Shown piece by piece: positions 12,688 to 41,986 of a DNA stretch of 64,000 nt. The stretch is from NCBI RefSeq assembly GCF_026339995.1, contig NZ_JAPEPT010000001.1:1004501-1068500 (forward strand), in the 5' to 3' direction. Under the pieces are notes generated by a model. The model was not told where the DNA came from and made no database searches. It was given only the letters and a program-made list of their open reading frames with translations. How positions within the stretch are numbered: the first letter of the stretch is position 1; the number at the start of each line of letters is the position of its first letter. The translations under genes and the position numbers were made by a program. Source of the DNA: Streptomyces sp. NBC_01481 (GTDB taxonomy: Bacteria; Actinomycetota; Actinomycetes; Streptomycetales; Streptomycetaceae).

Positions 12688-13425
12688 ATGGCCTTCTGGG
12701 ACGGCCTGCGGCGTGGCAGGTCACTGCAGTTCGACTCCGGCAGCGCAGCGACCAATTCGATCGAGCTGACCAAACGGCACCCGACGGTCTCGCTCACCAA
12801 GCAGGGCGCGGCCACCGGCAATCTGCGCGTCAACCTCTCCTGGAGGATGCGCACTTCCGACATCGAGGGCAGGTCCAAGCAGAGCGGCAGACTGCTGCGG
12901 CACCCCTTCAAGCTCTTCCAGCCCGATGTGGTCCAGGCCCACACCCAGGGCGTGGTCAATGTGGACCTCGACCTGGGCTGTCTCTACGAGCTGACGGACG
13001 GCAGCAAGGGCGTGGTGCAGCCGCTGGGCAGCTTCTTCGGCAGCATCAACGAGGCGCCCTATGTGAAGCTCAGCGGCGACGACCGCTTCGGCTCCCCCTC
13101 GGGCGAGACGATCTACGTCAATCTCGACCACCGCGAGTCGATCAAGCGGCTGCTGTTCTTCGCGTACATCTACGACCAGACACCGGCCTTCGACCGTACG
13201 CACGCGCATGTGACGCTCTACCCGAGCAATGGTCCGCGGGTGGAGATAGAGCTCGACGAGCGCGCGCCGCAGGCCCGTTCCTGCGCGATCTTCTCCATGG
13301 AGAACGTGAAGGGGGAGCTGGTCGTGCGCCGCGAGGTGAAGTTCGTATACGGCTTCCAGGCGGAGCTGGACCGGCTGTACGGCTGGGGTCTGCAGTGGGG
13401 ACGCGGTTACAAGAACCGGGTGTAG
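12688..13425 (+). CDS. TerA/TerD-superfamily tellurium-resistance protein
   Basis: 245 residues from the ATG at 12688 (MAFWDGLRRGRSLQF). The body is beta-rich and reads like a TerD-superfamily domain with changed ligand residues: VDLDLGCLYELTDGSKGVVQ near residue 95, DDRFGSPSGETIYVNL near 130 and FDRTHAHVTLYPSNGPRVEI near 170. The usual GWD and SPDG blocks are missing, so it fits the TerA-like branch rather than TerD itself. It lies behind the TerC terminator, tail to tail with another TerD-domain gene. Confidence 0.8.
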   Translation: MAFWDGLRRGRSLQFDSGSAATNSIELTKRHPTVSLTKQGAATGNLRVNLSWRMRTSDIEGRSKQSGRLLRHPFKLFQPDVVQAHTQGVVNVDLDLGCLYELTDGSKGVVQPLGSFFGSINEAPYVKLSGDDRFGSPSGETIYVNLDHRESIKRLLFFAYIYDQTPAFDRTHAHVTLYPSNGPRVEIELDERAPQARSCAIFSMENVKGELVVRREVKFVYGFQAELDRLYGWGLQWGRGYKNRV

Positions 13426-13436
13426 CGGCTGACCAC

Positions 13437-14237
13437 TCAGGGGCGTACGAACTGGGGGCCCATGGGCGGCAGCCGGAAATTCGGGTCGGGCGCGGGCGCC
13501 GCCGCGGCGGCGGGCTGCGGATAGCCGTACGCCGGAGGCGCGACCGGCTGGGTCGCCGGCGGCTGCGGGTAACCGTACGCGGGCTGAGGGTAACCATAGG
13601 CGGGCTGGGCGGCCGGGGGCTGCGCGGGCGGCGCGGGGTGCGGGTCGGTCTGCGGCCGAGGCTCGGGCTCGGCGGACGGCTCGGCAGCCGCCTCCGCCTC
13701 GTCCACCGAGATGCCGAACGCCGTGGCCAGACCCACCAGACCGGTCGGATAACCCTGCGCCACCGCGCGGAACTTCCAGCCTTCCCCGCGCCGGTACAGC
13801 TCGCCGCAGATGATCGCCGTCTCCAGGCCCGTCTCCGGCTTCACATCGAAGACGGCGAGCGGCTCGCTGTCGGCCAGGGCGGCGTCGTAGAGCAGTATCC
13901 GCAGATCGCGTACATGCTGGAAGGTGTCGCCGTCGGACGAGGCGGCGAGTACCACCTGGTCGACGGACGGGTCGAGGGAGGAGAGATCCGCCTCGACGGT
14001 GTCCGTCAGATGCTCCGCGACGCGCTTCTTGGACAGCCGCCGCACCAGACCCGACGGATGGCGCGGCTGGTTGTAGAAGACGAAGTCCTCGTCGGAGCGC
14101 ACACGCCCGTCGCTGCCGAGCAGCAGGGCCGAGGCGTCCACGTCGGGGACCCCGGCGCCCGGGGTCCAGCGCAGCACGGCCCGTACGGCCGTGGCATCGA
14201 GAGGAACGTTCGAGCCCTTCACCATCGCGTGCGTCAT
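13437..14237 (-). CDS. TerD-domain protein with Pro-rich YGYPQP tail
   Basis: About 266 residues from the ATG at 14237 ([13 protein letters not shown]); an ATG at 14246 would add three residues. Residues 1-180 are a TerD domain with [17 protein letters not shown] and [12 protein letters not shown], a ligand block altered from the classical GWD/SPDG. Residues 185-266 are low-complexity, rich in Pro, Ala and Gln, with YGYPQP three times, ending in [11 protein letters not shown]. Such tails mediate protein contacts in Ter proteins. The divergent neighbour is the CitE-like gene. Confidence 0.85.
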
Positions 14238-25437: not shown

Positions 25438-26331
25438 TCACCCGGACAATGGTGTATGCGATGCGGGCGGGGATCCAGGGGCTGAGCCGCGGCGACCTGC
25501 TCGGCGCCTGCGGATGATCACTCCTGTGACGAGCACACCCGCGAAGAGTGCGGTGATGATCGCTGGGCCAATCGTGTCCAGCGTTTCAGCGATGGTGCGC
25601 TGGACGGTGCCCGCGGCGTCGATGACCGGGTCCTGGGCTGTGGGGTCGCGCTGGACGCGGATTTCGTACCAGCCGTAGTAGGCGACGTATGCGCCCACGA
25701 GCAGGAGCAGGCCGCCGCCGAGGCGGGGTGCGAGGGCGCCGAGGCGGCGCAGGCGGGTGACGGCGGTGGTGCGGGTGAGAGCCACGGTCAGGGATGCGGC
25801 GCCGACGATCAGACCCATCCCGGCCGCGTACGCGGCGAAGAGGGCGATGCCTTCGCCGGTGGATCTGCCGCGGAAGGCGGAGACGACGATGGCGAGGAAG
25901 GGGGCGATGGTGCAGCCCAGCGAGGCGGTGGCGTACGCCATGCCGAACAGCGCCATCGAGGGGACGGAGCGGGTGACGGTGGGAGCCCGGCGAACCTTCG
26001 GGGTCAGGGCCGGGAGTTGGCGGCCGGTGATCAGCCAGGTCCCGGCGGCGGCCATGAGGAGTCCGAAGGCGATGGTGAACCAGGGCAGGTGCTCCTGGAC
26101 CTGTCCGGCGACGGGCTGCACGGCCAGGCCGAAGACGCCGAAGAGCGCGGCGAATCCGGCGGTCATCGCAGCGGTGGCCGTCAGTGCCCGACCGACGGCC
26201 ACGGTGCGTGTGGGGCTGTCGTCGCCGAGGACGAGCAGCGACAGGTAGGCGGGGAGCAGGGCGAATCCGCACGGGTTGACGGCGGCGAGCATGCCGGCGG
26301 TGAGCGCGAGGGCGAGGGGCAGGTCGGCCAT
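25438..26331 (-). CDS. ccdA: Cytochrome c biogenesis protein CcdA (thiol-electron carrier)
   Basis: 297 residues with seven to eight membrane helices. The opening MADLPLALALTAGMLAAVNPCGFALLP contains the NPCGF signature with one redox Cys. The second conserved Cys is in TASLGCTIAPFLAIV near residue 140, so the two membrane Cys of the CcdA/DsbD core are present. It moves electrons from cytosolic thioredoxin to extracytoplasmic thiol proteins. The gene starts 6 bases after the lipoprotein thioredoxin gene, its natural substrate. Confidence 0.92.
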   Translation of the reverse strand: MADLPLALALTAGMLAAVNPCGFALLPAYLSLLVLGDDSPTRTVAVGRALTATAAMTAGFAALFGVFGLAVQPVAGQVQEHLPWFTIAFGLLMAAAGTWLITGRQLPALTPKVRRAPTVTRSVPSMALFGMAYATASLGCTIAPFLAIVVSAFRGRSTGEGIALFAAYAAGMGLIVGAASLTVALTRTTAVTRLRRLGALAPRLGGGLLLLVGAYVAYYGWYEIRVQRDPTAQDPVIDAAGTVQRTIAETLDTIGPAIITALFAGVLVTGVIIRRRRAGRRGSAPGSPPASHTPLSG

Positions 26332-26337
26332 GGGAGT

Positions 26338-26928
26338 TCAGCCGGTGAGTCCGGCGACCTTCTCGGCCAGCCCGTCGCCGCCGGGCAGGACGCCTTCGTA
26401 GACGGTCTTGCCGTCCTTGTCGAGGATGACGTATCGGCTCTGCTCGGTGACCTTGAACCGCTTCCACACGTCGCCGTTCTCGTCGGAGAGGTGCGGGAAG
26501 GCGTCGGTCTTGGTGTCGGAGACGAATGCCTTCATGGCGGCGTTCTTGTCCAGCCCTGCGACGCCGACCACGTTGGCCCTGCCCGCGTAATCGGCGGCCA
26601 CCTTCGCGGTCTCGGCGGCCTGGGCCTTGCACTTGGGGCACCAGGGAGCCCAGAACCACAGAACGGTGGGCTTGCCGGCGAGGGTCTTGGCGTCGAAGGG
26701 CTTGCCGTCCACGGTGGTGCCGGTGAACTTCAGCAGCTCGGGCACCTCGGCCCCTGCGCTCCCGGTGTCGCCCCCGTCCGAGGGGGCTGGCGGCTGGGCT
26801 GAGGACGATGTCTTCGAGGCGGCCGCCCCCGCGTCACCGGCGGAGTCGGAGCCGCCGTCAGCTCCGCACCCGGTGACGGTGAGCAGGGCGGCGGCCAGGA
26901 CGGCCGGGAGGAGAGTGCGGGCGCGCAT
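26338..26928 (-). CDS. TlpA/redoxin-type thioredoxin lipoprotein
   Basis: 196 residues from the ATG at 26928, with AGGAG upstream. The signal ends in lipobox LLTVTGCGAD, so it is a membrane-attached extracytoplasmic protein. After a Ser/Ala/Pro linker comes a thioredoxin fold with active site FWAPWCPKCKAQ (CxxC with Pro-Lys between) near residue 98. It would reduce disulfides outside the membrane and be recharged by CcdA encoded next in the operon. Confidence 0.9.
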   Translation of the reverse strand: MRARTLLPAVLAAALLTVTGCGADGGSDSAGDAGAAASKTSSSAQPPAPSDGGDTGSAGAEVPELLKFTGTTVDGKPFDAKTLAGKPTVLWFWAPWCPKCKAQAAETAKVAADYAGRANVVGVAGLDKNAAMKAFVSDTKTDAFPHLSDENGDVWKRFKVTEQSRYVILDKDGKTVYEGVLPGGDGLAEKVAGLTG

Positions 26929-27017: not shown

Positions 27018-27726
27018 TCAGCCTGCGGCGTCCTTGAGGCGGGCGGTGTCGAGGACGGTGATGCGGCCGCGGGCGAGGCGGAGCAGTCCTTGGTCGGCGT
27101 AGTCGTGCAGCACCTTGGTGCAGGTTTCGCGGGAGGTTCCGGCCAGCGCGGCGAGCTGTTCGTGGGTGAGGGCGATCTGCGGGTGCCGTCCGCCGGGCCG
27201 CAGCGGGCTCGCCGGGGGCTGCGCGGTGGTGAGGGTGTCGAGGGTGGTGGCGATGCGCTGGGCGACGGTCTTGAAGACGCTGTTCGAGGTCGGCGAGGCG
27301 GCGGCCGAGGATCGCGGTGATACGGGCGGCGATCCGGGCGTCGGTCAGCAGTAGCCGGTGCACGTCGGCGCGGCTCATCACGCAGACGACGGTGTCGTCG
27401 AGGGCTTCGGCGTAGTTGTCGTACATCTGCTGTCCGAGCAGGGCCATCTCGCCGAAGACGGTGCCCGGGGTGATGATTGCGGTGGTGAGCGCCCGGCCGT
27501 CGGCGGAGACGCGGAAGACGCGCACGCGGCCCTTCTTGAGGATGAACAGCACCTCGCTGGGCTGAACGGGCGAGTAGAGGATCTCGCCCGCGGTGTAGGT
27601 CTTCATCGGCGCCGCGGCGGCGATGGCCTCCATTTCCTGTGCTGACAGGTCGCAGAAGATGTCGACCTCGGCCATGCACCAGGTCCTGTCGGCGTCCCCG
27701 GCGTCGTCCGTACCGGCGTCGATCAT
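27018..27726 (-). pseudogene. Crp/Fnr-family regulator, frameshifted near 27275
   Basis: The ATG at 27726 opens a cyclic-nucleotide-type sensor domain (residues about 20-135: KTYTAGEILYSPVQPSEVLF, ITPGTVFGEMALLGQQMYD) and the long dimer helix. At about residue 151 (LADLEQRL) the frame breaks. The DNA-binding domain is complete in another frame (QIALTHEQLAALAGTSRETC, ending KDAAG) with its stop at 27018-27020. The total of 709 bases is one more than a multiple of three. Either the gene is newly broken or the base call is wrong. It is the natural candidate to bind the GTRA-N6-TYAC sites in this island. Confidence 0.8.
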
Positions 27727-27914: not shown

Positions 27915-28402
27915 TCATCCGCCGGCCGGGCCGGTGCGCTGCTTGTCCGCGGCCTGGGCGATCGCGGCGAACGTGAGTCCGGCGAGCAGCCCGAACACCA
28001 GGTGTGCGCCGAGGCTGGAACTGCTGACGTCGTTCCATTCGAAGACCGGCATGCCCATGTTCGCGGGCATGATCCACAGCGCACCGACGAACCACCACAC
28101 CGCGCCGTAGGCCACGCCGAGGAGGACGGCGGGTGCGAGGCGCTGGGCGAACTGGCCGAGCAGGGCGCCGAAGGTGATGACGGCGAAGAGCGCGATGGAC
28201 AGGTGGATCAGCCAGCCTGCGAAGGCGTTGGTCGAGCCGAGGAGTCCTGCGACCATGGTGATCATTGCGGTGTCCGTCATCGGCCGAGAGACCGACATCC
28301 AGATGCCCATCCCTATTCCGCCGACGAGTCCGGCCGCAGCGCCCCATGCCGCATGGATCGGGACGGCGGCGTGCTTGGGGATACCTGCGTCGTCGTTGTC
28401 AT
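27915..28402 (-). pseudogene. Four-helix membrane protein with a frameshift near the start
   Basis: The ATG at 28402 (GAGAGGG upstream) opens MTTTTQVSPSTPPSRSMRHG. One missing base near 28345 breaks the frame. The remainder, AAAGLVGGIGMGIWMSVS and then four membrane helices ending ALIAQAADKQRTGPAGG-like sequence, is open to 27915; an internal ATG at 28310 gives a 131-residue product. The 488-base span is one short of a multiple of three. A GTGA-N6-TTAC palindrome lies 80 bases upstream. The function is unknown. Confidence 0.6.
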
Positions 28403-28475: not shown

Positions 28476-28489
28476 GTGAGGGCGCTTAC
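28476..28489. promoter_or_regulatory. Crp/Fnr-type palindrome (site 1)
   Basis: GTGAGGGCGCTTAC is an inverted repeat with the half-sites GTGA and TTAC separated by 6 bases. It is centred 80 bases upstream of the start at 28402. It belongs to the same family as sites at 38097 and 41230. Confidence 0.5.
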
Positions 28490-29133: not shown

Positions 29134-30348
29134 TTGCCGATCGTCGACCAGGCCGCGGTCGGCCGGATCTTCCGCGAGGAATCCGGCCGATCGGTGGCTG
29201 CCCTGATCCGCGTCTTCGGCGACATCGACGTCGCCGAGGATGCGGTGCAGGAGGCGTTCGCCGTCGCCCTGCACACCTGGCCGGACCGCGGCCTGCCGCC
29301 CAACCCGGGCGGCTGGATCACCACGACCGCCCGCCGGCGTGCCATTGACCGTCTGCGCCACGAGTCGCGTGAACGGGAACTGCTCGGCGAGGCGGCGGTG
29401 CTCTCGCCCGGCAACGACGATTACGGCACGCTCGAGGAGGCGGGACCCGTGCAGGACGACCGGCTTCGCCTCATCTTCACCTGCTGCCACCCGGCACTCT
29501 CCACGGAAGCGCAGGTGGCTCTCACCCTCCGGCTGCTCGGCGGCCTGTCGACCGCGGAGGTCGCACGATCCTTCCTCCTGGCTGAACCGACGATGGCGCA
29601 ACGCCTCGTGCGTGCCAAGCACAAGATCAAGGCCGCCCGGATCCCCTACCGCGTGCCGGAGGATCACGAGCTGCCCGACCGCCTGCCCCTGGTACTGGCC
29701 GTCGTCTACCTCGTCTACAACGCCGGACTGACCGGACCGGCCGAACAGGGTCTGTGCCCCGAGGCGATCCGGCTGGCACGGATCCTGACGACGCTCATGC
29801 CCGACGAGCCGGAGGTGGCCGGCCTGCTCGCACTGTTGCTCCTGACCGAGTCCCGTCGCTCGTCACGCATGCGGCCAGACGGCTCCCTGGTGCTGCTCGG
29901 CGAGCAGGACCGCAGCCGATGGGATCGGGCCTTGATCGAGGAGGGCCAGGCGATCGTCCGCAAGTGCCTTCGCCGCGATCACCCCGGTGTCTATCAGCTC
30001 CAGGCCGCCATCAATGCCGTACACGCGGACGCAGCGACATTCGAGCAGACCGACTGGTCGCAGATCGTCGCCCTGTACGACCAGTTGCTCGCCATCGCCC
30101 CCACGCCCGTCGTGGCCCTGAACCGTGCCGTCGCCATCGGTGAGGTGCAGGGCCCCGCCGCCGCGCTGGCTCTGGTGGACGAGCTGGACCTGGACAATTA
30201 CCACCCCTTCCACGCCACGCGAGCTGATCTGCTGCGGCGGCTGGGCAGGAACAGCGAGGCCGCGGTCGCCTACGAGCGCGCCGCCGCCATGGCGCCGACG
30301 GACGCAGAGCGGGACTTCCTCAGGCTCGGCGGCCGAGCTGCGCGCTGA
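29134..30348 (+). CDS. ECF42-type RNA polymerase sigma factor with long C-terminal domain
   Basis: 404 residues, probably from the TTG at 29134 with GGAG 7 bases upstream. Residues 1-75 are sigma region 2 (SVAALIRVFGDIDVAEDAVQ) and about 110-170 region 4 (ALTLRLLGGLSTAEVARSFL). Residues 185-400 form a helical TPR-like extension (DUF6596-type, with LAVVYLVYNAGLTG) typical of ECF42, where it replaces an anti-sigma factor as the control element. It should direct transcription of its own operon and of DGPF genes. Confidence 0.9.
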   Translation: MPIVDQAAVGRIFREESGRSVAALIRVFGDIDVAEDAVQEAFAVALHTWPDRGLPPNPGGWITTTARRRAIDRLRHESRERELLGEAAVLSPGNDDYGTLEEAGPVQDDRLRLIFTCCHPALSTEAQVALTLRLLGGLSTAEVARSFLLAEPTMAQRLVRAKHKIKAARIPYRVPEDHELPDRLPLVLAVVYLVYNAGLTGPAEQGLCPEAIRLARILTTLMPDEPEVAGLLALLLLTESRRSSRMRPDGSLVLLGEQDRSRWDRALIEEGQAIVRKCLRRDHPGVYQLQAAINAVHADAATFEQTDWSQIVALYDQLLAIAPTPVVALNRAVAIGEVQGPAAALALVDELDLDNYHPFHATRADLLRRLGRNSEAAVAYERAAAMAPTDAERDFLRLGGRAAR

Positions 30349-34774: not shown

Positions 34775-35584
34775 CTACGTGGCGTCACCAAGGCGGACTG
34801 TTCGTTCGGCGATCAGCATGGCGTAGCCCAGGACGCCGTCGGCCACGGCCTCGCGGGCGGCCTGAAGGACGGCTGGGGCCGCGTTCAGGTCGACGCCCGC
34901 GGCGGCGAGTTTGTCGGGAGCGGTCATGCGCAGCAGGTTCAGACGGGCCGCGATCTGGTCGATCATGCGGACCATGGCCTGGTCGTGGCGCTCGGTGGTG
35001 ATGGTGCGCAGTCCGGCGGAGGCCAGGATGTCGGTGTACTCGGCGAGCGGGCGGGCGTCGGCGATGCAGGCGATCCGGGCGCCGAGACCCCTCAGTTCCG
35101 GTGGAAGCCGGTCCGGTTGGGCGGTCACATCGGTGACGCCGAGCCGACCGCCCGGGCACAGAACCCGGGCGAACTCGGCTGCGGCCTGCGCTTTGTCGGG
35201 GAAGGTGCACAGCGCGCACTCGCACACCACCGCGTCGAACATCCCGTCCGCGTAGGGCAGGTGCTCCGCGTCGCCGGTGACGAACACCGCCCGTTCCGCA
35301 AGACTCGCCGCCTGGGCCGCTCCTTGGGCGAGGGCGGTGTTGGCGGCGGAATAGTCGACGCCGTCCACCCGCACCCCGTAGATGTCAGCGAGGAGGAGCG
35401 CGGTGGTGCCCCGGCCCGAGGCCACATCCAGGACACGGCCGTCCTCGGTGAGGCCGAGAGAGCCGGCGAGGCGGCGGGTCAGGGCGGTGCCGCCGGGATG
35501 GTAGGAGTCGCCGAGCAGCAGGGCGACGACGTCGGAGGAGTACGCGGCGGCGCAGCAGGCTTTGAGCTTGTCCTCGGCGGTCAT
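34775..35584 (-). CDS. SAM-dependent methyltransferase (ArsM-like N-terminus)
   Basis: 269 residues. The ATG at 35584 overlaps the radical SAM stop (ATGA), so the two are co-translated. It opens KLKACCAAAYSSDVVALLLG with a Cys pair at residues 9-10, then LLLGDSYHPGGTALTRRL. The SAM site is VLDVASGRGTTALLLA near 50 with VDGVDYSAAN, and the post-I motif VCECALCTFPDK has two more Cys near 125. The Cys-rich N-terminus resembles metalloid-type methyltransferases, but the substrate is not certain. It probably works with the radical SAM enzyme. Confidence 0.8.
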   Translation of the reverse strand: MTAEDKLKACCAAAYSSDVVALLLGDSYHPGGTALTRRLAGSLGLTEDGRVLDVASGRGTTALLLADIYGVRVDGVDYSAANTALAQGAAQAASLAERAVFVTGDAEHLPYADGMFDAVVCECALCTFPDKAQAAAEFARVLCPGGRLGVTDVTAQPDRLPPELRGLGARIACIADARPLAEYTDILASAGLRTITTERHDQAMVRMIDQIAARLNLLRMTAPDKLAAAGVDLNAAPAVLQAAREAVADGVLGYAMLIAERTVRLGDAT

Positions 35585-37188
35585 CGCGTACTCCCGTCCG
35601 TGCGGGCGGTCTTGGAGCCGTACGGGGTATCGGTGAGCTGGTCGGTGAGGGGCAGCGCGTTGGGCACCACGTCCGCGACCGGGACGCCGGACATCTGTGC
35701 CCGGATCTGTTCCCGGTAGCCGACGGAGTTGTAGGCGCAGAACGGGATGAGGCGTCCGTCGGGGGTGATCTCCTCGACGCAGCACTTCATGAGCTGTTTG
35801 ACGTTGAGGGTGTAGGGGTCCTGGAAGTCCTGCACGACGATCATGAACGCCTTGTCGTTCAAGTCCTTCACGGCCTGCGGCAGGTCGATGCCGCAGGTTC
35901 CCCCGTAGCCTTCGGCACGGGAGGTGCCCCCAGCGCAGTCCAGCGCCACGGCTGTCGTCCGTAGCTGCTCCTCGGTGGTGGCTGTGCCCATGAACGCGGA
36001 GGCGGACCACAGCTTTTCCAGGGCCTCGCGGATGCCGGTGTCGGGCATGACGCGGTTGGTGACGTAGTCGAGGTAGTCCTCGACCTGGAGAAGGCGTGGG
36101 ATCGGGACGACCGTTCGGTTACCGGGTTCGCCGTCTACGAGGAGGTAGGTGACGGACCGGCAGGTGGGGAAGCAGCAGGGCACGGGGAAGAAGTCTCCCT
36201 TCCGGAACCAGCTGGGCCGCTGCTCGCCGATCAGCCGGATGACATCGGGGTTGGTGAGCCGGTTCAGTGGGTCGAAGGCGACGTGCCTGCCGGAGTGGGT
36301 GACGGGCTGGAAGGCCACGGACCGTACGGCGGGGTGGTCGATGCCGTACTCGATGATCGCGCCGACTTCGTGCTCGTTCAGTCCGCGTTCGACGGCGGCG
36401 ACCAGGGTGACGGTCAGCCCGGCCTCGGCACAGTTGTCCAATGCCCGCTGCTTGAACGTACGCAGGTCCCGGCCACGGATCTCCAGATGGGTGCGCTCGT
36501 CGAAGCCATCGAACTGGAGATAGATGTTCACCGACCTGCCGGGCATCTGGTTGCGTGTGCCGAGCTCCGCGACGAGCCGCTTGTCGGAGGCGAGGCGGAT
36601 GCCGTTGGTGTTGAGGGTGACATTGCGGATCGGCCGGGCCTGGGCGAGGTCGATGAAGTCGAGGATGTGCTGGTGGATGGTGGGCTCGCCGCCCGAGAAC
36701 ATCACCACCTCCGCCTCACCCTCGGACTCCACGAAGACATCCAGCATCCGCTCGCACTGCTCGTGCGTGATGGAGTAGCCGTCCGGTTGGTGGCCGGAGT
36801 CGGCGAAGCAGATCGGGCAGTCCAGGTTGCAGCCGGTGTTGACCTCGATGATCCCCAGGCAGGCGTGCTGCTTGTGCTCCGGGCACAGCCCGCAGTCACT
36901 CGGGCAGCCGTCCCGTACTTCGGTCTGGAAGACGAGCGGGATGGTGCCGGGCTTGTTGAACCGCGAAGACGACAGGTACTCCTCCGCATCCCCGTAGACA
37001 AGAGCCTCGAACCCGCCGTGCTCGCGGCAGCGTTTGCGCAGGTAGACCTTGTTGTCGCGGATGTTGACCTGGGCGTCGACGGGCGTCTTGCACATCGGGC
37101 AGATGGACTTGGTGAACTCCACGAACACCTCGTCGCGATCCACCTTGCGCTGCGGCACGGGTGCTTGGGTCATCCGGGGGTTCTCCAC
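35581..37188 (-). CDS. Radical SAM protein of the tetraether-lipid-synthase (Tes/MJ0619-like) type
   Basis: 535 residues. It begins with a CPMCKTPVDAQV zinc- or cluster-type site (CxxC, then CREHGG). Next come CPSDCGLCPEHKQHACLG near residue 95 and the radical SAM motif GCNLDCPICFADSG near 118 (CxxxCxxC). FSGGEPTIH follows near 165. A late Cys cluster includes VPCCFPTC (near 325), LMKCCVEEI and IPFCAYNSVGYR. This order matches archaeal Tes, which joins lipid tails, and the methanopterin methylase MJ0619. The true substrate here is unknown. A mobile hairpin is read in frame at 35900. Confidence 0.82.
   Translation of the reverse strand: MENPRMTQAPVPQRKVDRDEVFVEFTKSICPMCKTPVDAQVNIRDNKVYLRKRCREHGGFEALVYGDAEEYLSSSRFNKPGTIPLVFQTEVRDGCPSDCGLCPEHKQHACLGIIEVNTGCNLDCPICFADSGHQPDGYSITHEQCERMLDVFVESEGEAEVVMFSGGEPTIHQHILDFIDLAQARPIRNVTLNTNGIRLASDKRLVAELGTRNQMPGRSVNIYLQFDGFDERTHLEIRGRDLRTFKQRALDNCAEAGLTVTLVAAVERGLNEHEVGAIIEYGIDHPAVRSVAFQPVTHSGRHVAFDPLNRLTNPDVIRLIGEQRPSWFRKGDFFPVPCCFPTCRSVTYLLVDGEPGNRTVVPIPRLLQVEDYLDYVTNRVMPDTGIREALEKLWSASAFMGTATTEEQLRTTAVALDCAGGTSRAEGYGGTCGIDLPQAVKDLNDKAFMIVVQDFQDPYTLNVKQLMKCCVEEITPDGRLIPFCAYNSVGYREQIRAQMSGVPVADVVPNALPLTDQLTDTPYGSKTARTDGSTR
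35900..35931. repeat. Short GC-rich hairpin repeat inside the radical SAM gene
   Basis: CCCCCGTAGCC / TTCGGCACGG / GAGGTGCCCCC is nearly identical to the unit in the MITE at 4670-4703. On the coding strand it is translated as GGTSRAEGYGG between two Cys (DC ... TCGIDLP), so it adds about 11 residues to a metal-cluster loop. Confidence 0.7.
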
Positions 37189-37287
37189 TCATATCGCGAC
37201 CGGGCACGCACACCTGGCCTTGGCGTCGCCGCATCGGGCTGCTGCGGTCTGGGTGAACGGCGGAAGGGTCCGGCCGGTCACCGGATG

Positions 37288-37611
37288 TCATGGATGGTGG
37301 CGGGCGTCTTCCGTGTCCGAGCCATGCGGCCTGCCTTGGCCGGCCGCGTCGGATGGTGGTGTGACGGACGGGCAGCAGTCCTCGGGCCCGGCACCACCGC
37401 GGGACCGGTAGCGCAGGGTGCGGACGACAGCGGCAAGGACCATCACCGTACCGACGGCGATCAGCCAGGGATTGCGCCGCGCACCGCCTACGGCAACGGC
37501 CACACCGCCGGCAACGAGTAGCGGGCCCGCGCAGGCCAGCACTGTCAGCAGCCCCCTACCGACTGCGGCCGGCGTGCCGCGCAGGCCGGTGGGTTCGCGG
37601 GGTTCGGACAT
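37288..37611 (-). CDS. Small two-helix membrane protein
   Basis: 107 residues from the ATG at 37611, which shares a base with the MauE stop (TGATG). Two membrane helices (GLLTVLACAGPLLVAGGVAV and PWLIAVGTVMVLAAVV) lie near residues 20-65. A Cys pair, EDCCPSVTP, lies near residue 83. No known family is apparent. It lies between mauE and the radical SAM gene and may serve the same pathway. Confidence 0.7.
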   Translation of the reverse strand: MSEPREPTGLRGTPAAVGRGLLTVLACAGPLLVAGGVAVAVGGARRNPWLIAVGTVMVLAAVVRTLRYRSRGGAGPEDCCPSVTPPSDAAGQGRPHGSDTEDARHHP

Positions 37612-38060
37612 CAGGCATCGGCCTCCTCCCTCATGTGCGGGTACTCGGCGGGTGCGGCAGGGCGCCTGCGTGCCCCGTGCAGCAGCAGCCCCGCGTAGAG
37701 CAGCGTCAAGGCGTCCTGGACGAGTACGAACCAGCTCAGCCGCTGGGACAGGTAGATGCCGAAGCAGCCGCAGTTGGCCACGGTGAGCCCGCGTGCGTAC
37801 GCCTGCACAGCCAGGAACGACCGCACCACCGAGACGGCCGTGAACACCCACACCGGTGCAAGCGCCTTTGAGCGCGGGCGGGCCAGGAACCAGACCCCGC
37901 ACACCAGCTCGCCCGCGATCAGGGCCACGGCCAGGGCGGTCGCGGCACCGCCGGTCGCCAGCCCGTAGGCGGCCAGTATCCCGGGCATGTGCCCGATGGA
38001 GGCCAGCTGGCCGAGCGCCATCGCGGCATACACCGCGCCCAGCATGATCCGCAGCACCAT
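37611..38060 (-). CDS. MauE-like redox membrane protein
   Basis: 149 residues from the ATG at 38060. Four membrane helices are clear, and the family signature ANCGCFGIYLSQ (two Cys in CGC) lies near residue 98, at the start of the last helix pair. MauE proteins resemble DsbD/VKOR-type thiol carriers and help form disulfides in exported redox enzymes. Upstream is the shared GTAA-N6-TCAC palindrome, centred about 43 bases from the start. Confidence 0.85.
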   Translation of the reverse strand: MVLRIMLGAVYAAMALGQLASIGHMPGILAAYGLATGGAATALAVALIAGELVCGVWFLARPRSKALAPVWVFTAVSVVRSFLAVQAYARGLTVANCGCFGIYLSQRLSWFVLVQDALTLLYAGLLLHGARRRPAAPAEYPHMREEADA

Positions 38061-38096
38061 GATCTGAACGCTAGACGCGGGTGGGTGCCGAGAACT

Positions 38097-38110
38097 GTAA
38101 GCGCGCTCAC
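38097..38110. promoter_or_regulatory. Crp/Fnr-type palindrome (site 2), divergent promoter
   Basis: GTAAGCGCGCTCAC has GTAA and TCAC half-sites around 6 bases. It lies between the mauE operon (minus strand) and the DUF3179 operon (plus strand), so one bound dimer could control both. Confidence 0.55.
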
Positions 38111-38178
38111 CGAACGGGCACCGGCTGCGCGGGACCATCGGGAGTGTGGGAACCGTGTTCCGAGGCGGGTGATGCACG

Positions 38179-39213
38179 GTGAACGGTCAGCGGCAGCCCA
38201 GGCGGGACCGTCGGCAGGTCATCAAGGGCGCCGGCGTGATCGGGGGAGTTGTCGTCCTGGTCGCGGGCGGGGGCGTCATCGGCTGGCAGGCCCTCTCGGA
38301 CCGCCCGTCCGAGCCCGTGACCGCCGTACAGCCCGGACAGGATCCGTCGCTGGAGGCGCTGGCCGGCGCGGCGGTCTCCGGCGGGCCGGGCAAGGACGGA
38401 ATCCCCTCCATCGACCGGCCCCGGTTCATCCCGGCGGGTGACGCGGACTTCCTCGCGGACGACGACCCGGTGTTCGGACTGGAGTACCGCGGCGAGGTCC
38501 GGGCCTACCCGCAGCTCGTGCTGGTGTGGCACGAGATCGTCAACGACACCGTGGGCGGCCAGCCGCTGGCGGTCACCTACTGCCCGCTCACCGGCACGGT
38601 GATCGGGTTCTCCAGCCCGCCTGGTGTGCCGAAGCTGACGTTCGGCACGACCGGACGGCTCGTCAACTCCAACCTGCTGATGTACGACCGGCAGACCGGA
38701 TCCGAGTGGCCGCAACTGCTCGGCACGGCCGTCAGCGGCCCGCTCAAGGGCAAGCAGCTGGACACGCTCCCCCTGGTGTGGACCACGTGGAAGCAGTGGC
38801 GGGCCGCGCACCCCGACACCCAGGTACTGTCCACCAGCACCGGCGCCCTGCGCAGCTACGGCAGCGACCCGTACGGCTCCTACGACTCGTATCCGGACCG
38901 CAGCGGCTACTACGCCGGGGGTCGTCCATTCTTCCCGGTGCTGACCAGCAGCGACCGCTTCTCCGACAAGGACGTCGTTATAGGAGTACGGGTCGGCAAG
39001 GAGCGCCTCGCCATCCACAAGGACCTCGTCCGCAAGGCAAAGACCGTGCACTCCGAACTCGCGGGCACCGAACTCGTCGCGCGATGGGACGAGCGGCTCG
39101 ACACCGCCCGGGTCCTTCAGCGGGTCGGCGACCGGTGGGAGCCTGCCGACCACCTCGACTCCATGTGGTTCGCCTGGTACGCGTTCTACCCGAGCACCCA
39201 GGTACGGCAATGA
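38179..39213 (+). CDS. DUF3179 family membrane-anchored protein
   Basis: 344 residues from a GTG at 38179. A basic start (RQPRRDRRQVIKGAG, twin-arginine-like) leads into one membrane helix (VIGGVVVLVAGGGVIGW). The outside part has the DUF3179 signature VTYCPLTGTVIGFSS near residue 135, VNSNLLMYDRQTGSEWPQ near 160, and conserved YP..DP region near 235. The single Cys in TYCPL suggests a redox or metal role; the function is unknown. It overlaps the next gene by ATGA. Confidence 0.85.
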   Translation: MNGQRQPRRDRRQVIKGAGVIGGVVVLVAGGGVIGWQALSDRPSEPVTAVQPGQDPSLEALAGAAVSGGPGKDGIPSIDRPRFIPAGDADFLADDDPVFGLEYRGEVRAYPQLVLVWHEIVNDTVGGQPLAVTYCPLTGTVIGFSSPPGVPKLTFGTTGRLVNSNLLMYDRQTGSEWPQLLGTAVSGPLKGKQLDTLPLVWTTWKQWRAAHPDTQVLSTSTGALRSYGSDPYGSYDSYPDRSGYYAGGRPFFPVLTSSDRFSDKDVVIGVRVGKERLAIHKDLVRKAKTVHSELAGTELVARWDERLDTARVLQRVGDRWEPADHLDSMWFAWYAFYPSTQVRQ

Positions 39214-39872
39214 ACAGGCCACTCGCCGCGCTTGCCAGGGCCGGAGACGCCTGGGACGCCACGATCGCCGCCGCCGTGGCCACCCCTCGCCGTGTGCGCG
39301 CCGCCCTCGCCGTAAGCCGCCACCGGCGGATCGGACTGGTCGCTGCTGCCGTCGTGCTGGTGGCGTACCTGTTCTCCATCGGCGATCTCGCGGTGTCGGC
39401 CTCCGGCCGGTACACCGGCGCCCCCGTGTTCCAGACCGCCTGGGACCAGCTGTTCCGGGCCCGTGCGCCCTACCTGTTCGAGCCGGTACTCGCGCTGCAT
39501 CCCACTCGGCATGTGGCGGCGTTCGTCAGTCCGGTCAACCTGATGCTCGGCGCGGTCGTGGCCGCGCTGGTCGGGTGCAATGTCGCCACCGCCGGGCTGG
39601 CGGCCCGGCAGGCGGCCTCCTGCCGACGGACCGGTTACGCGCGGCTGCTCGGCGTGCTCCCGGCGTTCCTGCTCGGATTCGCCTGCTGCGTACCGACCTT
39701 CCTGCTCGTCCTCGGCACTGGCGCCGCCGCGGCCCTCCTGCCGGTACTGATCCCCCTGCGCCCGGTCTTCTACCCGCTCACGCTGTTGATGCTCGTCAAC
39801 ACACTGGTGTGGGGCGCATCCCGGATCGGCCGGCCGTATGACCGACCGAGCCGGGACTCGGTTCAGATCTGA
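39210..39872 (+). CDS. Membrane protein with a vicinal Cys pair in a helix
   Basis: 220 residues; the ATG overlaps the DUF3179 stop. Helices lie near 40-60, 105-130, 150-172 and 175-200. One contains FACCVPTFLLVLGTG near residue 160, a Cys-Cys-x-Pro arrangement inside the membrane like that in mercury or copper transporters such as MerT. That makes metal or thiol transport plausible but not proven. Confidence 0.7.
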   Translation: MNRPLAALARAGDAWDATIAAAVATPRRVRAALAVSRHRRIGLVAAAVVLVAYLFSIGDLAVSASGRYTGAPVFQTAWDQLFRARAPYLFEPVLALHPTRHVAAFVSPVNLMLGAVVAALVGCNVATAGLAARQAASCRRTGYARLLGVLPAFLLGFACCVPTFLLVLGTGAAAALLPVLIPLRPVFYPLTLLMLVNTLVWGASRIGRPYDRPSRDSVQI

Positions 39873-40231
39873 ACGAACACGGTTGCGCTGCCGGGAACGA
39901 TCGTGTCGAAGTTGATCAGTCCGGGGATGATGAGCTTGATGCCCTCCTCGGCTCCGGCAGGCGGGCTGCCGAGCAGGCAGTCGATGGTAAGAATCGCGGG
40001 GATGCGCGCCTTGGGGTCCGTGTCGGGAGTGATGTCCACGGCCAGAATGAGCAACCCGCCGAACCAGTCGGCGGGCGCCCCTTGCGGCGTGCCGTTCCCG
40101 TAGGACGTGAAGCTATTGACCCAACGGGCCTGGAATGTCCCGGTCAGGGTTTCCCCGGTGGCCGCGACGTAGTGCTTGAAGGTGCCGCCGCCGCTCGCGG
40201 CATGGTGCCGCGGGACCAAGGACCGATGCAC
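39863..40231 (-). pseudogene. Hypothetical protein, truncated at its start
   Basis: About 110 residues at the end of an open frame read as real protein: TFKHYVAATGETLTGTFQAR, GAPADWFGGLLILAVDITPD, ending PGSATVFVQI. Upstream the sequence turns into the opposite-frame tail of the DUF1707 gene, and there is no start with a ribosome site. A GTG at 40231 is possible. I think its 5' part was removed. Confidence 0.45.
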
Positions 40232-40248
40232 ACGCACCGGTCCGGCGT

Positions 40249-40539
40249 TCACCCGTGCGGAGGGGGCAGCCAGCAGAACACCGCGCGCCGAAGCGCCCGG
40301 ACAAGCCAGTTGCCGACGCGATCGCGTACCGGCACCGGGCCGACGACAGCGGGCGGTTCGGCCACGGCAGCGGGCACGAGCGGGAGCAGCTGGCTCAGCT
40401 CGTCCTGGGTGTGCGCGGGCGTTGCCTGGCTGACGCGTTCCTTGAACGTCGGTTCGTCCAATCGGCCTTCGGCGTATGCCGTCTTGAGGCGATCGACGGC
40501 CTGGTCCCGTTCGGTGTGACCGACCTGCGGTGACGGCAT
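40249..40539 (-). CDS. DUF1707 (SHOCT-like) protein
   Basis: 96 residues with a very strong ribosome site (AGGAGGAGGT) before the ATG. It opens VGHTERDQAVDRLKTAYAEG and LDEPTFKERVSQATPAHTQD, the DUF1707 helical domain (residues 8-60) found at the start of many actinobacterial membrane proteins. The remainder is short and ends soon after VRALRRAVFCWL, so it may have lost its usual membrane region. Confidence 0.7.
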   Translation of the reverse strand: MPSPQVGHTERDQAVDRLKTAYAEGRLDEPTFKERVSQATPAHTQDELSQLLPLVPAAVAEPPAVVGPVPVRDRVGNWLVRALRRAVFCWLPPPHG

Positions 40540-40586
40540 GGGGACCTCCTCCTTTCACGGTACGGCCGGTGGCGGCGGGCCCGGGC

Positions 40587-41156
40587 TTACTGCAGGGCAG
40601 AGCGCCGCTCCGCCTCCTTCTTGACCGAGGTCAGTGAGGCCGCGACTGTTTCCTCCCAGCGCCTGGCCACCAGCTGTCCCCAGCGTTGCCCGAGCGCCCA
40701 CAGGTCCGTGCCCAGCTCGCCCTCGTACGCCAGACGCGTGCCCGTCTCGTGCTCGGCCAGGACGAAGGACTCCATGACATACGGCACCGGCCCGCGGACC
40801 AGCCGGAAGTCCACTCGCGAGGGCCGGGTGAGCCGGACCGTCTCCACCGTGACGGCCGTCAGACGCCCGCCGGCCACCGGGGTGGAGTGTGCGGCGAGCA
40901 CCATGTCGATGCCGCGCTCCAGCACCCGTACTTTCTCCCGCATCGCCCGGGTGGCCCGCCCGAGATACGGCTGGGCGATCACGTCGAAGACGACCTCCCG
41001 GGGGGCCTGGATGCCGACCATCTGCGGCCCCAGCGGGCGGGTCCGCCGACCAACGCCCACATCCAGGGGCAGCGCCCCGGTCACCAATCCCAGATACCCG
41101 GCCACAGCGCCGCCGCCCACCGCAGCCACACCCACCAGCTTCGCCGGCAACGACAT
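40587..41156 (-). CDS. SRPBCC-fold protein with N-terminal membrane segment
   Basis: 189 residues from the ATG at 41156, which has GAGAGGA six bases upstream (two earlier starts exist). One membrane helix (VGVAAVGGGAVAGYLGLVTG) is followed by a START/SRPBCC ligand fold: MVGIQAPREVVFDVIAQPYL, VTVETVRLTRPSRVDF, FVLAEHETGTRLAYEGELGT. Such proteins bind lipids or other hydrophobic molecules. A perfect GTGAGCGCGCTCAC palindrome lies 80 bases upstream and is shared with the divergent phosphatidyltransferase gene. Confidence 0.78.
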   Translation of the reverse strand: MSLPAKLVGVAAVGGGAVAGYLGLVTGALPLDVGVGRRTRPLGPQMVGIQAPREVVFDVIAQPYLGRATRAMREKVRVLERGIDMVLAAHSTPVAGGRLTAVTVETVRLTRPSRVDFRLVRGPVPYVMESFVLAEHETGTRLAYEGELGTDLWALGQRWGQLVARRWEETVAASLTSVKKEAERRSALQ

Positions 41157-41229
41157 ACCGGGTCCTCTCTCCATGCTCCGCACTCGTGCCATCCGGGGAT
41201 GACGCTACGGCCGACGGGCCGGCGGATCG

Positions 41230-41243
41230 GTGAGCGCGCTCAC
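41230..41243. promoter_or_regulatory. Crp/Fnr-type palindrome (site 3), perfect
   Basis: GTGAGCGCGCTCAC is a perfect 14-base palindrome (GTGA-N6-TCAC) centred about 80 bases from both divergent starts (41156 and 41318). Confidence 0.6.
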
Positions 41244-41317
41244 CTTCGGGCCGCAGGTCGGCCGTCTACCGTGAGCGCAGCACATCCCGCGCTCGAAGAG
41301 AGGGGCACCGCCTCCAC

Positions 41318-41986
41318 GTGTCCGTATCCGATCTCACCGACAGCCGCGCCGCCACCAACGCCCTGCTGGGAGCACTGAGGCGGGATGGCTGGAGACCGCA
41401 CGCCGTCGCCCGCTTCCTGTGGCAGGCCGCCGACCGCTCAGCGCGGCAGGCGGCCCGCCGCCCCCGGGCACTCGGCCAGATCACTGCCCTGCACTGCCTG
41501 CTGCTCGCTCGCGCCGGGCAGCAGCGCCCGGGGCGGGGATGGGTGGCGACCAGCTGGACCCTTGCCGTGGTCCATCTGGGCCTGCTGGAGCACCGTGACC
41601 GGCTCTCGCCGGCCGATATGCTCACACTGATCCGCGGCAACCTCCCCGCCACGAGCATGGGACCGAGCCGCTGGTCGGGCCTGCTGGCCATCACCCTGGA
41701 CCTGACGGACGGGCACCTGGCCCGGAACCAGGGCACCGTGTCACCGTTCGGCGACTACGCCGACTCCTTCGCCGACGCCGCGTACTGGACCTGGCTCACC
41801 CTGAGCCACGAACCCAGCCGTGCGGTACGGGCGGCGGCGATCGCCGCATGGGCACTACCGGTCGTCACGGTCACGGCCATCGGCATCCGCCGCGGCACCA
41901 TGCCCGAGCGGCCCCGCCCCGCACTGCTGCGCCCGGCCGCCGCGATGCAGGGCGTCGTCGCCCTGCGGCACTTCCTGCGCCGTTGA
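41318..41986 (+). CDS. CDP-alcohol phosphatidyltransferase family membrane protein
   Basis: 222 residues from a GTG at 41318. The catalytic motif DG-x2-AR-x8-G-x3-D-x3-D is complete in DGHLARNQGTVSPFG plus DYADSFAD near residue 130. This family swaps CMP of a CDP-lipid for an alcohol in the membrane during phospholipid synthesis. Helices lie mostly in the second half. The alcohol acceptor cannot be named. It shares its upstream palindrome with the SRPBCC gene, which supports a lipid-related role for this part of the island. Confidence 0.85.
   Translation: MSVSDLTDSRAATNALLGALRRDGWRPHAVARFLWQAADRSARQAARRPRALGQITALHCLLLARAGQQRPGRGWVATSWTLAVVHLGLLEHRDRLSPADMLTLIRGNLPATSMGPSRWSGLLAITLDLTDGHLARNQGTVSPFGDYADSFADAAYWTWLTLSHEPSRAVRAAAIAAWALPVVTVTAIGIRRGTMPERPRPALLRPAAAMQGVVALRHFLRR

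Follow-up and report, generated by a model that had tools for sequence, protein, structure and literature searches.

A Streptomyces island with a predicted Crp-type operator couples the genes of a Tes/TrsS-superfamily radical SAM protein and a methyltransferase with cysteines in ArsM columns

What would a relative of the archaeal tetraether synthase (Tes), which joins two lipid chains end to end into membrane-spanning lipids, do in a Streptomyces genome, beside genes of lipid and thiol-redox type? The question is raised by a locus at positions 34775–41986 of a 64,000-nucleotide stretch of Streptomyces sp. NBC_01481 (contig NZ_JAPEPT010000001.1, positions 1,004,501 to 1,068,500; hereafter the window, to which all coordinates refer unless another stretch is named). 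The locus is built around a radical S-adenosylmethionine (SAM) protein of 535 amino acids (35581–37188, minus strand) and a class I methyltransferase of 269 amino acids (34775–35584, minus strand). A first-pass annotation had described a Tes-like island that could modify membrane lipids under redox control, and every gene that it named is present in its place. We find that the radical SAM protein is, as judged by sequence, another branch of the Tes/TrsS superfamily and not Tes, that it has a constant methyltransferase partner, and that the pair would likely make a sulfur- or arsenic-type compound that is possibly linked to the membrane. No published account of the island turned up in the literature listings searched.

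The operon lies on the minus strand in the order mauE, a gene for a 107-amino-acid protein, the radical SAM gene and the methyltransferase gene. The last two are coupled, as the first-pass annotation had reported: the stop codon of the radical SAM gene and the start codon of the methyltransferase gene overlap by 4 nucleotides (ATGA). We surveyed 80 named loci, the best 80 of 222 relatives, 46 of them from Streptomyces and 34 from other organisms. The methyltransferase gene directly follows the radical SAM gene in all 80 (76 by a 250-nucleotide rule; in the other 4 the genes touch or overlap). A methyltransferase of the same type also directly follows in five of five haloarchaeal plasmid loci inspected, one of which has a fragmentary radical SAM gene.

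The radical SAM protein carries CPSDCGLCPEHKQH, GCNLDCPICFADSG and a late group of cysteines (KCC...PFC). All 121 family proteins compared (the window protein and 120 among the matches listed, of 5,752) share its metal-site motifs, which are CX2C-X20-CX2H, CX3CX2C with His, CX3CX2C and CC...PFC. The metal motifs of Tes (rubredoxin-like, Fe4S4-N, radical SAM and Fe4S4-C), aligned to the Tes structure 7TOL, are likewise present in all 121. This structure is the nearest solved one, with an E-value of 4.3e-79 by sequence and of 1.8e-118 by profile over 472 profile positions. The relation to Tes (MJ0619; PDB 7TOL and 7TOM) that the first-pass annotation had drawn is borne out by the metal-site motifs, their order and an alignment by profile that covers most of the protein, all indicative of a common superfamily. 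Its further step to a Tes-type enzyme is not. The protein scores 320.1 bits with the Tes model NF045702, under the cut-off of 450, and at the positions of Tes Met439 and Tyr459 it has Gln453 and Glu473, as do all 121 family proteins. It also differs from Tes in its extra PCCFPTC cysteines, part of a PCC...C triad that is common to the haloarchaeal relatives and absent from 7TOL as aligned, and in its coupled, ArsM-like methyltransferase, whereas the word methyltransferase is absent from the text of one of the two Tes discovery papers (PMC8941075). Four more distant relatives in a plasmid collection, from Persicobacter (L130), Mycobacterium avium (L132), Nonomuraea (L133) and Mycobacterium branderi (L184), show 27–34% identity over the match. 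At the Met439 position such relatives vary (Thr, Lys or, in Persicobacter, Met), and Tyr is missing from the Tyr459 position in all seven relatives that fall outside the branch.

The methyltransferase gives a first hint of the chemistry. All 12 partner methyltransferases compared, actinobacterial and haloarchaeal, have Cys123 and Cys173, and the same columns hold Cys in five of five ArsM-family proteins. A further cysteine, Cys126, is found in 12 of 12 partners and in none of the five ArsM-family proteins. Six other methyltransferase loci of the genome were tried; three were alignable, and none of these has Cys at 123, with gaps at 173. According to the part of the CmArsM study that was available, Cys72, Cys174 and Cys224 bind arsenic, and the second methylation needs only Cys174 and Cys224 (PMC3877260). 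Judged by the match ranges, the two shared columns would be those of Cys174 and Cys224, and we infer that the partner methyltransferase holds a thiophilic atom. The likeness to ArsM (NF008823, the second-best model) extends to 26–31% identity with the five ArsM-family proteins. Unlike ArsM, the window protein lacks a cysteine in the SLGCGNP column, has the extra Cys126, is encoded next to a Tes-like radical SAM gene, and scores 84.5 bits with that model, under its cut-off of 263.

The pair does not stand alone, and a shared operator ties it to its neighbours. The same genome has a second island on the same contig, 988 kb away, whose radical SAM copy is 90% identical to that of the window. The near-palindromic operator GTGAGCGCGCTYAC stands between mauE and the DUF3179 gene (GTAAGCGCGCTCAC, 38097–38110), again between the SRPBCC and CDP-alcohol phosphatidyltransferase genes (GTGAGCGCGCTCAC, 41230–41243) and, with one mismatch, upstream of a DUF6789-like gene (GTGAGGGCGCTTAC, 28476–28489); none of the three sites is assigned a strand. 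The operator-like sites of the first-pass annotation are thereby confirmed, including its claim that the lipid genes share them with the MauE and DUF3179 operons. With up to two mismatches the window has five matches against 1.01 expected by shuffling, and none of 100 shuffles reached five. In the whole genome the exact operator occurs at five places, four of them inside the two islands, and with up to one mismatch there are 18 strand hits against five for a reversed control pattern. Outside the islands lie four one-mismatch sites, of which the three inspected (all but C1:910963) are inside genes. The fifth perfect site, C1:191655, is at a gene end with no regulon gene near, and we took it as chance.

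The operator recurs across the genus. It is present in exact form in 32 of the 46 named Streptomyces loci, against 0–1 of 46 in each of 20 shuffles. Of 46 operator sites, 44 lie within 250 nucleotides upstream of a MauE, radical SAM, DUF3179, SRPBCC, CDP-alcohol phosphotransferase or DUF6789-like gene, and the distance to mauE is 48–50 nucleotides in 28 of 28 cases. A Crp-family gene is nearby at 24 of the 32 loci with the operator versus 3 of the 14 without it (Fisher p 0.001); the operator is also associated with the DUF6789-like gene (p 0.001) and with DUF3179 and MauE (p 0.04–0.05). The Streptomyces loci thus combine a near-palindromic site at a fixed distance with a Crp-family gene, the features of a Crp-type regulon. 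Binding is predicted: a Crp-family protein would bind the operator, and the island is likely switched as one unit. In the window the Crp-family gene (27021–27726, minus strand) is in two frames with a break near 27268–27287, through assembly error or decay, and the second island has an unbroken relative (13026–13727 of its stretch, L003). An FNR-like iron-sulfur cluster in this regulator was considered and dropped, as its second N-terminal cysteine varies.

Among the genes next to the operator, two are of lipid type. An SRPBCC-like gene (40587–41156, minus strand) and a CDP-alcohol phosphatidyltransferase gene (41318–41986, plus strand; PF01066, E 1.1e-8) stand back to back. Both had been named in the first-pass annotation; the SRPBCC gene is indeed there, with a family match that is weak (Polyketide_cyc2, E 0.0011, under the Pfam cut-off). 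Within the CDP-alcohol phosphatidyltransferase we spotted by eye DGxxAR...GxxxDxxxD, which we take to be the motif of that family. A whole-genome search found two copies of this CDP-alcohol phosphotransferase type and two of the SRPBCC type, and both copies of each are beside a radical SAM copy. A role of these two proteins at the membrane is suggested because they share the operator and are linked exclusively to the radical SAM genes. It is this exclusive pairing that best supports the membrane link, which rests on regulon and neighbourhood rather than on chemistry. In other organisms than Streptomyces the CDP-alcohol phosphotransferase type is near 7 of the 34 loci.

Several of the remaining members of the island point to thiol-redox work. 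The radical SAM operon begins with mauE (37611–38060, minus strand; PF07291, E 1.2e-11), followed by the gene for the 107-amino-acid protein (37288–37611, minus strand), which matches no family above cut-off. Divergent from mauE are two mutually overlapping, coupled genes on the plus strand. The first encodes a DUF3179 protein (38179–39213; PF11376, E 1.4e-95) with a TYCPLT motif and, by eye, a twin-arginine-like N-terminal signal. The second encodes a protein with the FACCVPT motif (39210–39872) that has no Pfam match; its membrane nature, assumed in the first-pass annotation, agrees with hydrophobicity as seen by eye. DUF3179 is known as a family of selenoproteins whose motif reads UxxC or UxxT (PMC9312934), and we take CPLT to stand in the place of that motif. 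Beyond the span first annotated, the segment 25438–28489 belongs to the same island. It holds genes for a CcdA/DsbD-like protein (25438–26331, minus strand, just below the Pfam cut-off), a TlpA-like thioredoxin-fold protein with an AhpC-TSA/Redoxin match (26338–26745, minus strand) and the DUF6789-like protein (27915–28310, minus strand, below the Pfam cut-off). A DUF1707 gene (40249–40539, minus strand) is peripheral, with relatives near 7 of the 46 Streptomyces loci and 1 of the 34 others.

The neighbourhood is conserved within the genus. In a comparison of 21 Streptomyces loci (the second island and 20 stretches of other genomes, from 27 matches), the methyltransferase is a companion in 21, MauE in 18, SRPBCC in 16, the DUF6789-like protein in 14, the CDP-alcohol phosphotransferase, CcdA and TlpA in 10 each, and DUF3179 in 6. 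Moreover, DUF3179 lies beside three of the five haloarchaeal pairs, DUF547 with a redoxin or peroxiredoxin beside three of five, and a dihydrolipoyl-dehydrogenase-like or other FAD oxidoreductase beside four of five. A thiol-redox setting is therefore common to bacterial and haloarchaeal loci. The lipid-type genes are not common to both domains, with the exception of an SRPBCC gene 3 kb from the Salinirubellus pair, past a transposase gene.

The radical SAM gene is present in 24 of 392 sampled Streptomyces genomes (the matches in two of the 24 being fragments) and in 14 of 394 sampled genomes of the class. The first-pass view that such a system would be unusual in Streptomyces is therefore half right: few sampled genomes of the genus have the gene, and other actinobacteria have it too. 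Because the spread is sparse yet the identity high, the island may have moved between strains. The two islands of the present genome share more than the radical SAM operon, since an open reading frame of 404 amino acids in the window (29134–30348) recurs near the second island at 95% identity (around position 5489 of L003).

Several other genes recur at these loci. A DUF427 protein is encoded near 33 of the 80 radical SAM loci (24 from Streptomyces and 9 others; for example L127, 12674–13021); the second-island stretch has a relative, whereas the window yielded none. In four Pseudonocardiaceae stretches (L094, L104, L127 and L097) the pair has, no more than a few kb away, genes for a CDP-alcohol phosphotransferase, a CMD-family protein, a Crp-type regulator and a second, different methyltransferase. 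A small protein with the motif LCCVGPT (L106, 16337–16660; relatives in L097, L104, L107, L111 and L117) recurs near the loci. It is similar to the FACCVPT element of the window and calls MerT to mind, to which Pfam gives no match. On a Mycolicibacterium plasmid (L129) the pair adjoins CcdA, disulfide oxidoreductase, second radical SAM, glutaredoxin-domain and deiodinase-like genes.

Taken together, we tentatively favour a reading in which the island, under a predicted Crp-type operator, encodes a Tes/TrsS-superfamily radical SAM enzyme that forms a carbon–sulfur (or carbon–arsenic) bond and a methyltransferase that methylates the product. The radical chemistry is transposed by analogy from Tes, which itself has a sulfur–carbon intermediate: in PMC9433317 a lipid radical is caught by a sulfur belonging to the C-terminal cluster, and at low SAM a sulfur-bearing lipid accumulates, which can be isolated. 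In the present branch the enzyme would similarly make a carbon radical, to be trapped on a sulfur of the C-terminal iron-sulfur cluster or on arsenic, with a carbon–sulfur bond as the simplest end. The cysteines of the methyltransferase could hold or orient the thiophilic group, after which the enzyme would methylate the product. In Streptomyces, the CDP-alcohol phosphotransferase and the SRPBCC protein may insert the product into the membrane or ferry it there, and MauE, CcdA, TlpA and DUF3179 may control the redox state of thiols outside the cytoplasm.

A number of observations weigh against this reading. No close relative of the radical SAM protein has a known substrate, structure predictions are poor (mean pLDDT 58.9 for the radical SAM protein with 30 rows, too low to make out its pocket, and 58.6 for DUF3179 with 10 rows), and the haloarchaeal relatives lack the N-terminal cluster cysteines. 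The cysteine of the ArsM column SLGCGNP is missing from the partner methyltransferases, and in the Persicobacter, Nonomuraea and two mycobacterial plasmid relatives the radical SAM gene lacks a methyltransferase neighbour of this type. Not every locus has the accessory genes: DUF3179 is near 9 of the 46 Streptomyces and 5 of the 34 other loci, and outside Streptomyces MauE is near 1 of 34 and SRPBCC near 3 of 34. The operator occurs in none of the 34 loci from other organisms. Within Streptomyces there is no association between the operator and SRPBCC (p 0.70), the CDP-alcohol phosphotransferase (p 0.19) or TlpA (p 0.09), in a test confounded by several site-less loci being short contigs. Finally, ArsC of the type sought is rare, in 3 of 46 Streptomyces stretches and 1 of 34 others, and was not found in the genome of the strain itself.

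The alternative that survives best is also the nearest to the first-pass annotation, namely a membrane-lipid enzyme of the Tes kind that couples or modifies branched acyl chains, with the CDP-alcohol phosphotransferase and the SRPBCC protein serving the same lipid. The superfamily relation speaks for it, as do the shared operator, the exclusive linkage to the two lipid-type genes and the recurrence of the CDP-alcohol phosphotransferase type at 7 of 34 loci outside Streptomyces. In addition, four of four more distant relatives have an LGT-family gene (prolipoprotein diacylglyceryl transferase) upstream on the same strand (assigned by Pfam for two, by tblastn for Nonomuraea, and by annotation). 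In Persicobacter and Nonomuraea it immediately precedes the radical SAM gene, and in the two mycobacterial plasmids some 1 kb lies between them. A lipid-type partner, encoded by a different gene, thus appears in another branch of the superfamily. The close loci yielded no LGT-family relative, which counts against this alternative. The replacement of Met439 and Tyr459 by Gln and Glu in all 121 proteins cuts both ways. In the available text of PMC9433317 both residues are completely conserved across 1,000 archaeal Tes homologues; the M439A, Y459F and Y459L forms are nevertheless active and both residues are dispensable in vitro, so Gln453 and Glu473 do not exclude lipid chemistry. The score under the Tes cut-off and the methyltransferase partner at 80 of 80 loci, which has no known role in Tes chemistry, fit this alternative poorly. 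So does the occurrence of the same pair in haloarchaea, which to our knowledge make no tetraethers. We regard a Tes-kind enzyme as possible but doubtful. What holds of the earlier proposal is the lipid and redox setting, through the exclusive lipid-type pairing, the thiol-redox partners and the LGT genes of the distant relatives; the Tes-type enzyme is not supported.

The pair could alternatively be a variant of the TrsS system, a radical SAM–methyltransferase pair perhaps engaged in the modification of a cofactor or peptide, with no link to lipid or arsenic. In haloarchaea as well as here, the NCBIfam models that score best with the two partners are TrsS (NF045646) and DVU_1556 (NF045667), and they match near full length; for the methyltransferase the match spans 3–213 of 213, and genome-wide the next methyltransferase after the two island copies scores 74.2 bits. 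Yet both partners stay under the cut-offs (328.1 of 490 bits and 143.9 of 155 bits), and the island differs in its accessory genes and predicted Crp-type regulon. This explanation would also explain little, as our literature search found no function for TrsS or DVU_1556, and we consider it rather unlikely.

Similarly unlikely, and placed just after it, is an organoarsenical pathway in which the radical SAM enzyme and its ArsM-like partner build a carbon–arsenic compound, in phospholipid form in Streptomyces. Radical SAM enzymes partnered with ArsM do build such compounds, according to the available parts of PMC8552651 and PMC12159101, and the arsinothricin (arsL-arsM) and arsenosugar (ArsS, ArsM) systems resemble the present one in pairing a radical SAM enzyme with an ArsM-type methyltransferase, a likeness of ArsL and ArsS that is drawn by description and not by sequence. 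The cysteines in ArsM columns agree with this logic. The three Streptomyces stretches with ArsC compare with roughly 0.1 expected (an estimate from 41 matches in 41 genomes), and genes of the ArsR, SBF (by eye ACR3-like) and ArsC types lie near the pair at one Micromonosporaceae locus. On the other hand, the arsinothricin genes sit among ars genes, as the available text of PMC8552651 has it, and such genes are mostly absent here. Linkage to an ars operon (ArsR, ArsC or an arsenite transporter alongside) is not seen at the loci as a group: ArsC of this type is near 4 of the 80 named loci and missing from the stretches of the other 76, and the local regulator is of Crp type, not ArsR. Plain arsenic detoxification was rejected as a leading idea, as the genome itself has no ArsC of that type. 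The name 7,8-dihydro-6-hydroxymethylpterin dimethyltransferase, carried by some database entries and favoured by a Pfam match to the HMPTM N-terminal zinc ribbon, is very improbable as a description of function, since the pterin methylation ascribed to MJ0619 is not corroborated in the available text of the Tes paper PMC9433317.

We thus return to the carbon–heteroatom reading and to what it would mean. In its fullest form, a Tes-fold enzyme would stop at the carbon–sulfur or carbon–arsenic bond, a thiophile methyltransferase would act on the product, and the CDP-alcohol phosphotransferase would mount it on a phospholipid, giving a new actinobacterial thio- or arseno-lipid under Crp-type control; we hold this complete scheme to be distinctly unlikely. 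Both Tes papers report, in the text available, bacterial Tes homologues of unassigned task (PMC8941075, PMC9433317). One such bacterial branch is now tied, through gene coupling, a predicted regulon and a neighbourhood that spans two domains, to a defined partner methyltransferase and to genes of lipid and thiol-redox type. If the pair does stop at a carbon–heteroatom bond, one scaffold would have been turned from carbon–carbon coupling to heteroatom chemistry.

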